DNA from: Flavobacteriales bacterium
Lineage (GTDB): Bacteria > Bacteroidota > Bacteroidia > Flavobacteriales > UA16
DNA length: 8,762 nucleotides
Direction: 5' to 3'
Assembly (NCBI GenBank): GCA_030831885.1
Contig: JAURKF010000218.1
Span: 1 to 8,762 of the forward strand
A program made the position numbers and the translations under genes. Under the pieces are notes generated by a model, which had not been told where the DNA came from, did no database searches, and saw only the letters and a program-made list of their open reading frames with translations. This document shows, piece after piece, positions 1 to 6,063 of this stretch. Numbering within the stretch: position 1 is the stretch's first letter; each line of letters begins with the position of its first letter.

Positions 1-2128
1 ACTTAACAGCCATGTCTTTTTTTCGCAATACGAACAAGGCATCTTTGCTCACTTTTCGGAACCAACCTTAAATTATCAAGTGTTCATTTTTGGTCTTGTG
101 TCGAAGACCAATGCAGAGCTTTACAATCGTCATACCGACAGGCATCTAACGATTTTTGGTGTTTTTACGCAGCAATTCCAGGCAATGCTTTCCAACCGAA
201 AGAGAAGCGAAGCCATTGCGCGACAAATGGAACAAATTAAGGCATCGCAGCAGGAATTGCGCAAGCTTTCGCTTATTGCAACGCGCACTAAGAATGGGGT
301 GATTATAACCGACAACCAGGGTCGCATTGAATGGGTCAATAATGCATTCACAAAAATCGCAGGATATACTCTAGACGAAGTGTTGGGAAAAAAACCGAAA
401 GATTTATTGCAAGGTCCCAAGACAGCTGTCTCGGCAAGAGAAAAATTAAAGGAAGCTCTTTGGAAAAAACAAAACGTGGAGGTTACTATAGTCAATTACG
501 ACAATGAAGGCCGTGAGTATTACAACCAGCTGGAGATAATTTCCGTATTTGATGAGTCGGGAGAACACACCAACTTTATCGCCCTTCAAAAAGACATTAC
601 CGAAGAAACACTGGCCAGGCAAGAGATTCTTCGAATCAATACACGCTTTGAACTGATTGCAAAACATTCACGCATTGGAACCTGGGAATTGAGTATTTCT
701 GATAACTCGATTCGCTGGAATAACATCATGTACGAGATTTACGGTGTTGCTGAAGACAGCCCAATACCTATTGGAGAGCTATGGAGGTCAAGCGTTTCGG
801 ATACTGATTACGAGCAAGGCTTGTTCGATATGAATGCCATTCGCAACGGCCAAACAGACACTCGAGAGAGCACTTTCAAAATTAAGCGGCACAGCGATGG
901 AGCAGAGCGTATGGTAGAAACACTGATGGTTGCAGAACGTGATGAAAAAGGCGAATTGCTGCGCGTAGTGGGAAGCGCAAAAGATATCACTGAGGAAATC
1001 ACATTGCGCCGCGAGCGCGATGCAGCAGCGGAACGGATGATTACGCTGAAGACCTTCTATGAAAGCATTCTCAATCACTCTCCATCACACAAGTTTGTTT
1101 TTGACCCAGATGGCCGTTTGTTATTCACAAGCAATCCACCCAAAGAGGGAGCGATTTGGCTGGATAACACCTTCGGCAAATCAATTTTCGAAGTGGAACA
1201 AGCCGACGTCGGCGTGCGCACATGGAAAATGATAGAACACATTCGTCATGCTGTCGAAAACCGTCAAATTGTTCGCGCGGAAGATACCGGCGAACGTGCT
1301 GACGGCACTGCAGTAGAATTTCTTCAGAGCATTCTTCCTTATACCAATCAGGCTGGTGAACTCGAGCATATTATCGTAACGGGAATTGACATCAGTGAAT
1401 TGAAAAAAGTTCAGGAAGCGGTGAACAGAAAGAATGAAGAGCTTCAAAAAATCAACGCCGAACTCGACAACTTCGTTTATAGCATATCGCACGATTTGCG
1501 TTCACCCTTACTATCTATTAAAGGAATTGTTTCTCTCATTTTACATTCCTCTGAAATTGACGAGCGAAACAAGAATTATCTAAAAATGGTGGATGGGTCT
1601 GCTACTCGTCTGGATGAAACAATTCAGGAGATTCTCGAGTATTCAAGAAACTCACGCCTGGAGATAGCACATGAATCATTTAACGTTGTTGAAATGGTTC
1701 AACAAGCTTTCAATGATTTACGTTTCAGTGCTCAAGGAATGCTCGAGCTGCAACTCGACATACAAACCTCACCCATATTATTTACCGATCGCTCTAGAAC
1801 AAGTGTATTGCTGAAGAATATTATTGGAAACAGTATAAAGTATAGAAGAAAAGACATAGCAAGCATTGTACGCTTTACACTCCAACGGGCAGAAGGACAA
1901 ATAATCATGACAATTAGTGACAACGGAGAAGGCATCGACGCAGCTCATCTGAATAAAATTTTTACCATGTTTTTCAGAGGAACTACATCGAGCATAGGAA
2001 CCGGGTTGGGACTTTATATTTGCAAGGAGATTGTAAACAAATTGAACGGGGAGCTCAATGTTGAATCAACTCTGGGCCAAGGCACTAAAATGACCATTAC
2101 TATACCTGAATTTAGCCATCATGAATAA
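1..2128 (+). CDS. Multi-PAS sensor histidine kinase, 5'-truncated by window edge
   Basis: Sensor kinase expected to autophosphorylate on histidine and pass the phosphate to a receiver. The frame is open to the left edge (first full codon at position 2), so the GTG at 80 is probably not the true start; about 26 more residues are readable before it. Numbering from that GTG: residues 1-45 resemble the end of a GAF-like sensory domain (inference). PAS1 is about 62-175, with the typical 'GVIITDNQGRIEWVN' core and ending in 'ALQKDITEE'. PAS2 is about 188-305, ending 'GSAKDITEE'. PAS3 is about 322-440, ending 'VTGIDISELKK'. A short coiled coil leads into HisKA with the H-box 'SISHDLRSPL' (His471, codon at 1490). 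The HATPase domain has an N-box 'LLKNIIGNSIKYR', G1 'DNGEGID' (from 1919) and G2 'GTGLGL' (1997-2014). No transmembrane segment is visible, so the seen part looks cytosolic. All catalytic boxes are intact. It overlaps the next gene by 8 bp, which suggests translational coupling to its likely receiver partner. Confidence 0.93.
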   Translation, partial: LNSHVFFSQYEQGIFAHFSEPTLNYQVFIFGLVSKTNAELYNRHTDRHLTIFGVFTQQFQAMLSNRKRSEAIARQMEQIKASQQELRKLSLIATRTKNGVIITDNQGRIEWVNNAFTKIAGYTLDEVLGKKPKDLLQGPKTAVSAREKLKEALWKKQNVEVTIVNYDNEGREYYNQLEIISVFDESGEHTNFIALQKDITEETLARQEILRINTRFELIAKHSRIGTWELSISDNSIRWNNIMYEIYGVAEDSPIPIGELWRSSVSDTDYEQGLFDMNAIRNGQTDTRESTFKIKRHSDGAERMVETLMVAERDEKGELLRVVGSAKDITEEITLRRERDAAAERMITLKTFYESILNHSPSHKFVFDPDGRLLFTSNPPKEGAIWLDNTFGKSIFEVEQADVGVRTWKMIEHIRHAVENRQIVRAEDTGERADGTAVEFLQSILPYTNQAGELEHIIVTGIDISELKKVQEAVNRKNEELQKINAELDNFVYSISHDLRSPLLSIKGIVSLILHSSEIDERNKNYLKMVDGSATRLDETIQEILEYSRNSRLEIAHESFNVVEMVQQAFNDLRFSAQGMLELQLDIQTSPILFTDRSRTSVLLKNIIGNSIKYRRKDIASIVRFTLQRAEGQIIMTISDNGEGIDAAHLNKIFTMFFRGTTSSIGTGLGLYICKEIVNKLNGELNVESTLGQGTKMTITIPEFSHHE

Positions 2129-2513
2129 CCTGCAACATATACTACTGGTGGATGACGACGACATCTTCAACATGCTACACGGCGAAGTACTGAAGCGTTT
2201 ACTGCCGGGCGTTACCATCGAAATATTCAAATCGGGACAAGAGGTTGTTCACTATTTGGAAAATTCTGAAGGAGTTGCCATCGACCTCATATTTCTTGAC
2301 ATTCGTATGCCGATAATGGGTGGGTTTGAAGTGCTGGAAGCAATGGAAAAAATGGGTGCAGATCGATTTTCAAAAACAAGAATATACGTGCTTTCATCGA
2401 CGCTCGATGACCGTGATTTACAACGAGCGAAAGAAATATCTCTGGTTACTGACTTTATTGGAAAGCCTATGTCGTTCGATACTATGCGCAACATTTTGGC
2501 TGAACCGGTCTAA
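2121..2513 (+). CDS. Single-domain response regulator (CheY-like receiver)
   Basis: A 130-residue stand-alone receiver with no output domain. The acidic pocket is 'LLVDDDD' near the N-terminus. The phospho-acceptor is Asp60 in 'FLDIRMP' (codon at 2298), the switch Ser/Thr lies in 'VLSST', and the conserved lysine is Lys115 in 'GKP' (codon at 2463). Length fits a lone REC domain, and the 'LSSTLDDRDLQRA' stretch is the style seen in many Bacteroidota regulators paired with PAS kinases (family knowledge from memory). The ATG at 2121 lies inside the end of the upstream kinase gene, an 8-bp overlap, so it is probably translated by coupling. It probably accepts phosphate from that kinase and acts by protein contact or as a phosphate shuttle or sink; no DNA-binding domain is present. 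The target cannot be told from sequence. Confidence 0.93.
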   Translation: MNNLQHILLVDDDDIFNMLHGEVLKRLLPGVTIEIFKSGQEVVHYLENSEGVAIDLIFLDIRMPIMGGFEVLEAMEKMGADRFSKTRIYVLSSTLDDRDLQRAKEISLVTDFIGKPMSFDTMRNILAEPV

Positions 2514-5044: not shown

Positions 5045-6063
5045 ACAACGCACTACCTTCAACGACGGAAAAACCACTGTTACTCATTGTGGACGATTCA
5101 TCGGAAAATCTTCAGGTGCTCAATGCGCTGCTCAAAGATGACTACCGATTGAAGCTCACCAAAAGCAGCATCAAGGGTATTGAGATTGCTCAGCAAATGC
5201 CAAAACCCGATTTAATTTTGCTCGACGTTATAATGCCGGAAATGGATGGCTTTCAGGTGTGTGAGCATCTAAAGGCGAACCCAGAAACTTCGGCGATTCC
5301 CATTATTTTCCTGACAGCTCTCAACGAAGTGGCTGATGAAACGAAAGGATTTCAGAAAGGTGGGTCCGACTTCATCACCAAACCATTCAACCCTGACATT
5401 GTAAAAGCACGTATTCAAACACATATCGATCTGCAGCGAGAGCGAAAAAAGTCGAACGAGCTGCTACGCGTATTGCTTCCGGATGCAGTTGTATCTGATT
5501 TAATTAACCTAGGCAAACACGCCCCGCAAATCAAAGAAAATGTAAGTATTTTATTCTGTGATTTCGTTGGGTTTACTACAATCAGCGCATCGATGTCTCC
5601 GGAGGAACTCATCAACGAGCTATCGGATATTTTCGGTGCGTTTGACAACATATGTGAGAAGAATAAAGCCACACGAATCAAGACCATTGGTGATGCCTAC
5701 ATGGCCGTATCGGGGCTGCATGAATTGGACGCTAAACATGCACTGAATTTGGTGAAAACAGGACTTGATTTCATCGCATATTTAAATCAACGCAATGAGC
5801 AGCAAACTAGAAAATGGCAATGTCGTATTGGTATACATTCAGGGAAAGTAATTGCGGGCATCATTGGTAAAACAAGGTTCATTTATGATGTGGTTGGCGA
5901 TGACGTCAACATTGCCTCACGAGTAGAATCTGCCGGAAGTCCCATGAGCGTCACGACCACAACAGAAACTATTAAGCAAATCGGTTCGGACTTGCCCTAT
6001 GAAAGCCTTGGTATGATACATCTAAAAGGTAAAGGAGAAATGGCCCTTTTCCGAATCGTTTAA
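5041..6063 (+). CDS. Response regulator with class III adenylate cyclase output (REC-CHD)
   Basis: Converts ATP to cAMP under control of a phosphorylated receiver. REC spans about residues 12-125: acidic 'LIVDDS', phospho-acceptor Asp62 in 'LLDVIMPEMDG' (codon at 5224), switch Thr in 'FLTALNE', Lys114 in 'TKPF'. A helical linker with 'LLRVLLPDAVVSDLI' precedes the cyclase homology domain (about 168-335), as is usual for these enzymes. Metal ligands are Asp174 ('FCDFVGFT') and Asp218 ('TIGDAYMAV'). Lys214 ('IKTIGD') and Asp283 ('IYDVVGD') form the adenine-selecting pair, and Asn290 and Arg294 ('VNIASR') are the transition-state residues. Spacings match those recalled for mammalian adenylyl cyclase (Asp to Asn 7, Asn to Arg 4), so adenylate rather than guanylate cyclase is predicted. 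Class III enzymes work as dimers. No membrane segment is seen. The start lies in the ATGA shared with the hybrid kinase stop. The gene converges with, and overlaps by 4 bp, the HD gene. Receiver-cyclase fusions are known, for example in cyanobacterial CyaC-type proteins. Confidence 0.95.
   Translation: MNNALPSTTEKPLLLIVDDSSENLQVLNALLKDDYRLKLTKSSIKGIEIAQQMPKPDLILLDVIMPEMDGFQVCEHLKANPETSAIPIIFLTALNEVADETKGFQKGGSDFITKPFNPDIVKARIQTHIDLQRERKKSNELLRVLLPDAVVSDLINLGKHAPQIKENVSILFCDFVGFTTISASMSPEELINELSDIFGAFDNICEKNKATRIKTIGDAYMAVSGLHELDAKHALNLVKTGLDFIAYLNQRNEQQTRKWQCRIGIHSGKVIAGIIGKTRFIYDVVGDDVNIASRVESAGSPMSVTTTTETIKQIGSDLPYESLGMIHLKGKGEMALFRIV

Follow-up and report, generated by a model that had tools for sequence, protein, structure and literature searches.

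A phosphorelay cassette of a Flavobacteriales bacterium pairs a class III adenylate cyclase with a convergent HD-fold protein, a proposed cAMP phosphodiesterase

Contig JAURKF010000218.1 of a Flavobacteriales bacterium (assembly GCA_030831885.1), analysed here over a stretch of 8,762 bp (the window), carries four signalling genes that converge on a fifth, and it raises the question of whether one bacterial locus may both start and end a cyclic AMP (cAMP) signal. The four genes, coding for two histidine kinases, a lone receiver and a response regulator whose output domain is a class III adenylate cyclase, had been described as a phosphorelay cassette in a first-pass annotation limited to positions 1–6063, and analysis of open reading frames (ORFs) and Pfam domains confirmed that layout, with its 8-bp and ATGA overlaps and its 32-bp gap. 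The fifth gene (6060..6662, minus strand) lies beyond that limit, is convergent with the cyclase gene, which it overlaps by 4 bp, and codes for a 200-aa HD-fold protein whose fold and residues resemble those of class I cyclic-nucleotide phosphodiesterases (PDEs); with it, the locus would probably not only make cAMP but also break it down. On balance we hold it slightly more likely than not that the whole is a stimulus-controlled cAMP switch, comprising a phosphorelay-driven cyclase and HD-mediated breakdown. The interpretation given in the first-pass annotation is supported in part. The nearest proteins with a named source are from Bacteroidota, several of them named as Flavobacteriales, which agrees with the host that the first-pass annotation had put forward conditionally.

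The strongest reason to propose cAMP as substrate of the HD protein is that cyclase and HD domain recur together in different architectures. Twenty-eight REC-cyclase loci were read, one per genome, the view extending to about six genes ahead of the cyclase and five behind it, and in 14 of them an HD gene adjoins the cyclase gene and is convergent with it. Among the 120 REC-cyclase homologues listed, at least four end in an HD domain (P0063, P0066 and P0088 by Pfam, P0092 by sequence), and the two of these receiver–cyclase–HD proteins that were compared with the window HD are 35% and 38% identical to it. The HD protein of L122 is 72% identical to that of the window. Used as a query, the window HD matched 306 of the 399 genomes of the order at E ≤ 1e-15, many of the matching frames being about 1300 aa long, and the loci examined were drawn from the matches listed at this threshold. 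Fifty HD loci were read, comprising the 30 best-scoring, 19 alternate rows from ranks 31–69, and G032, a short frame (G116, one of the alternate rows, was omitted because it had already been examined under the name L127, whose HD and cyclase genes converge); the cyclase is encoded in the same ORF in 28 of them and in a separate adjoining ORF in 13. Since the 12 genomes counted hold only one to four matches each to PF00211, the cyclase catalytic domain, we judge the HD–cyclase neighbourhood to be far beyond chance. A broader reading, plausible but held tentatively and just short of probable, is that the HD family is a minimal bacterial relative of class I PDEs that in many Flavobacteriales is coupled to class III cyclases, either fused or as a convergent neighbour, the two forming an on/off cAMP module controlled by a phosphorelay here and by propeller receptors elsewhere.

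Two Flavobacteriales receptors of about 1300 aa, L169:4168-8088 (+) and L170:3352-7236 (−), are built of Reg_prop propeller repeats, Y_Y_Y, cyclase and HD, the last being found in L170 by BLAST and not by Pfam. Five further fusions (L171, L172, L173, L181 and L182) were chosen by frame length and lie outside the 50 loci; two of them, L172:4101-5498 (+) and L173:5182-6576 (−), have intact HD residues next to degenerate cyclase sites (SKDNNR and EKDANR, respectively); their cyclase may be a regulatory domain. A tree built from 64 HD rows sets the convergent or lone HDs apart from most fusions: 23 of these 24 form one cluster (support 95/84), the odd one out being L190, a contig-end piece that falls within the receptor fusions. 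Because the tree program gave a long-branch warning, fusion events were not counted from it.

The proposal that the HD protein is a cAMP phosphodiesterase draws on its fold and on its conserved residues. A fold like that of PDE10A and PDE4D spans 192 of its 200 residues, and the metal ligands His and Asp are invariant in all 64 HD rows. Also invariant in the HD rows compared are Q163 and F166, which form a Gln-x-x-Phe motif and which may, judged by the residue roles in class I PDEs, be the purine-binding glutamine and the phenylalanine of the clamp. The PDEase_I family model, PF00233, scored 22.0 bits on the fusion P0063, the cut-off being 24.8.

The response regulator (5041..6063, plus strand) comprises a REC domain (residues 15–125) with the acceptor Asp62 and a cyclase domain (residues 163–338), the latter matching PF00211 with E 2.3e-49 and 167.9 bits against a cut-off of 21.9. 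The catalytic residues D174, K214, D218, D283, N290 and R294 are all intact; presumably D174 and D218 are the metal-binding aspartates, K214 and D283 the ATP-type Lys/Asp pair, and N290 and R294 the transition-state residues. A cyclase output, put forward in the first-pass annotation as cAMP rather than transcription, is supported by these residues. Only three rows of the residue comparison, which includes G007, G011 and G317 twice each as well as the five length-chosen fusions, differ at the six positions, namely L005 (Arg to Lys), L172 and L173. At E ≤ 1e-90, 23 of 399 genomes of one order contain a REC-cyclase homologue, as do two of 298 of another and, for the family of G185, 15 of 114. 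In two relatives with draft genomes, G189 and G242, on which this statement rests, the cassette cyclase is the sole PF00211 match and the HD match is single. A Pycsar anti-phage cyclase was considered and set aside: the cyclase gives weak PycC matches (E 2.5e-14 and 2.2e-8), a PADLOC scan of four window proteins gave no match to an effector model (PycTIR or PycTM would be expected beside PycC), and Pfam gave no TIR domain in the seven window ORFs scanned.

Control of the cyclase would lie with the hybrid kinase (2546..5044, plus strand), which has the full set for an Hpt phosphorelay: HisKA (His117), HATPase_c, two receivers (Asp409 and Asp552) and a C-terminal Hpt domain at 4454..4813 on the same strand (residues ~637–756), with His692 at positions 4619–4621. 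The Hpt domain scores below the Pfam cut-off, and the Hpt fold is matched. The N-terminus of the kinase is short and, by eye, hydrophobic. Its gene and the cyclase gene share a 4-bp stop–start overlap in the window and in L120, L122, L123 and L124, and it lies directly 5' of the cyclase gene on the same strand in 17 of 25 informative loci, three of the 28 being cut by a contig end. According to the proposed mechanism, the hybrid kinase, probably membrane-anchored, would send phosphate through its receivers to Hpt His692 and from there to Asp62 of the response regulator, whose phosphorylation would activate the cyclase domain and raise cAMP, while the HD protein, as a minimal class I PDE-like metal phosphohydrolase, would degrade it.

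Upstream lie the PAS-PAS_3-HisKA-HATPase_c sensor kinase (2..2128, plus strand), whose 5' end is beyond the window and whose phosphorylated histidine is residue 497 of the 708 visible, and the lone receiver (2121..2513, plus strand; 130 aa, acceptor Asp60), which overlaps it by 8 bp. Together they may provide a second, side input or a phosphate sink, the lone receiver being, in the first-pass annotation, the putative target of the PAS kinase. Both are kept in all four close-relative loci that reach this region (L122, L123, L124 and L174), with 70–73% identity for the kinase and 70–74% for the receiver. Of the five closest relatives, three (L122, L123 and L124) have contigs long enough to include the pair, and in each it stands ahead of the hybrid kinase. 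Neither gene is among the genes seen around the cyclase in more distant loci. Consequently, the order kinase–REC–hybrid–REC/cyclase pointed out in the first-pass annotation holds in close kin and was not seen in distant loci: the four-gene cassette is conserved in close kin only, and the pair of hybrid kinase and cyclase, and likewise the HD partner, reach further.

Several observations weigh against the switch as proposed, most of them concerning the HD protein. Its profile–profile probability with class I PDEs is only 31–47%, the window protein has no match to PF00233, it reads YHD where PDEs have YHN (Asn to Asp), it lacks the second His of the PDE motif HDxxHxG, and the stretch in which Q163 and F166 align with the Gln and Phe of PDE10A comes without a printed confidence. 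A generic HD hydrolase, 2pq7, ties on structure (Z 17.3, though over 164 residues at 3.6 Å) and is the top Foldseek as well as the top profile match. The coupling to cyclases is also incomplete, since no HD adjoins the cyclase in 14 of the 28 REC-cyclase loci and nine of the 50 HD loci have neither a fused nor an adjoining cyclase, the nine including two at the edge of a contig (G143, with a cyclase fragment beside the HD gene, and G375, which is cut there). Moreover, of the 21 loci with an unfused HD (the 14 with a complete convergent cyclase plus L174–L180, hand-picked as HD loci), 20 have a Usp homologue beside it, 14 a complete cyclase and, in addition, G143 a cut cyclase fragment; Usp is therefore the steadier neighbour of HD in the unfused branch, and it stands beside HD even in six of the seven loci without a complete cyclase, L178 being the exception. 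This count weakens the case for a switch and for the broader reading, and it strengthens the explanation in which the four genes form a cAMP phosphorelay and the HD protein is an unrelated, generic HD nucleotide hydrolase travelling with Usp, an explanation that the rank of 2pq7 favours as well. We nevertheless consider it rather unlikely, given the same-ORF fusions in 28 of 50 loci, the four receiver–cyclase–HD proteins and the invariance of the PDE-like Gln and Phe. The window itself also speaks against it, for it gives no Usp match, the Usp gene that sits between the HD and SdpI-family genes in L120–L124 and L174 being absent at 6663–6811; it has lost Usp, yet keeps the cyclase by HD. If the HD protein acted instead on a related molecule, another cyclic or a linear nucleotide, the pair would tune a nucleotide pool rather than turn over cAMP. 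Members of the HD superfamily have many substrates, and YpgQ of Bacillus subtilis, crystallised with ADP, is among the structural matches, but the class I PDE match extends over the whole length, Gln-x-x-Phe is invariant, and the partner cyclases have intact ATP-type sites, though those of the L172 and L173 fusions are degenerate beside intact HD residues; we consider this substrate change improbable.

The phosphorelay part of the switch has its own counterevidence. The pairing of the hybrid Hpt with the cyclase, assumed in the first-pass annotation, gains indirect support from their adjacency, whereas eight of the 25 informative loci lack a hybrid kinase immediately ahead of the cyclase; given the number of genes seen per locus, this statement is firm, and one that no kinase lies further off would not be. 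A hybrid-kinase homologue is found a few genes away in five of the eight (L007, L008, L133, L135 and L136). In L174 (genome G171) the PAS kinase, lone receiver, hybrid kinase and HD gene are all present without the REC-cyclase, the 25 bp separating HD and hybrid kinase (within L174:2282-5504) having no place for it; four other PF00211 matches exist in that genome. It might accordingly be supposed that the hybrid kinase serves the lone receiver or other regulators and that another kinase drives the cyclase receiver, which is compatible with any reading of HD. The eight loci and L174 speak for this arrangement, and the adjacency in 17 of 25 loci and the 4-bp overlap kept in the window and four relatives speak against it; we regard it as unlikely, to a slightly greater degree than the unrelated hydrolase.

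Each component of the proposed cAMP switch belongs to or resembles a known kind, and its coupling to a PDE-like HD protein is the new part. In the cyanobacterial CyaC the cyclase is reportedly activated through kinase autophosphorylation and phosphotransfer, and CyaC-type cyclases hold kinase, receiver and cyclase within one protein. Control by phosphotransfer, as proposed here, would be shared, while the window kinases and REC-cyclase are separate ORFs accompanied by an Hpt and an HD neighbour. The hybrid kinase resembles BarA and TorS in its HisKA-HATPase-REC-Hpt order and Hpt fold, BarA being its top NCBIfam match, far below the cut-off (462 of 890 bits), and it differs from them in having two receivers, a short N-terminus with no recognised sensor, and a cyclase as output partner. 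The HD protein shares with PDE10A and PDE4D the fold and, apparently, the metal ligands and Gln-x-x-Phe, and differs from class I PDEs in the missing PDEase_I match and second histidine and in its length, some 100 residues less than that of either catalytic domain used for comparison (300 and 316 aa). A combined design of cyclase and class I PDE is also known from streptophytes, where CAPE joins the two with both activities reported, according to passages of PMC8115329. CAPE is one eukaryotic protein with an N-terminal PDE, whereas the window has separate convergent ORFs, and the bacterial fusions, found in relatives only, carry at the C-terminus an HD domain which in the window is a minimal 200 aa and below the PF00233 cut-off.

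cAMP signalling in Bacteroidota is hardly described, and according to a passage of a 2005 census (PMC1183210), none of the four Bacteroidetes genomes available at the time had an adenylate cyclase. A canonical class I PDE was considered and set aside: among 296 genomes of the phylum PF00233 gave sub-threshold matches in five and none above the cut-off, so that the phylum has no evident enzyme to terminate a cAMP signal. Among 30 other genomes two matched, one of them above the cut-off. The cassette offers a candidate for such an enzyme, and the cyclase–HD fusions would allow synthesis and breakdown to be followed in one protein. If the proposal is true, one locus can turn a little-known bacterial signal both on and off, and the HD family bears on the origin of class I PDEs. 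No paper on this family or on a bacterial cyclase–HD phosphodiesterase fusion was recognised among the titles listed by searches of the open-licence PMC literature.

Mycobacterial Usp proteins that bind cAMP exist, and by neighbourhood alone the Usp of the relatives may be a cAMP-binding third member; examples of Usp genes beside an unfused HD are L120:1950-2789 (+), L125:7500-8324 (−) and L176:1658-2485 (+). Cyclic nucleotide-binding proteins are present in all ten genomes scanned. The canonical cAMP phosphate-binding motif contains an arginine, which is missing, by eye, from the Crp-like proteins read (REC-Crp of ~352–355 aa in L204–L211, L205 being contig-cut, and a 211-aa Crp in L212 and L213), and hence a Crp-like receptor was rejected and no cAMP reader is named. 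REC-Crp regulators of 352 aa, in which the canonical arginine is likewise not seen by eye, stand beside a kinase and, by eye, a Usp-like gene in L120:10551-11609 (−) and L204:1027-2085 (+), and in G189 a REC-Crp gene lies ~9 kb from the cassette on the same contig.

The window was found to contain no tRNAs and no Rfam elements at gathering thresholds, and promoter and terminator scans of it gave counts at or below shuffled means and were uninformative. Beyond the HD gene lie an SdpI-family ORF (6812-7147, minus strand) and a gene for a DUF6851 protein (7332-8762, plus strand) that runs off the 3' end of the window and has counterparts with 78–86% identity at the equivalent place in L120–L124 and L174.

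In the region corresponding to that 5' of the window, a FIST-domain gene immediately precedes the PAS kinase in L122:4173-5357 (+), by Pfam, and in L124:2706-3932 (+), the two being 86% identical. It possibly codes for a putative NosP-like haem or nitric oxide sensor for the kinases: NosP proteins are described in passages of PMC12570481 as FIST haem sensors often encoded with kinases, and the outputs named there are, in contrast to the cyclase here, cyclic di-GMP enzymes. A further PAS kinase is also found upstream in L122 and L124.

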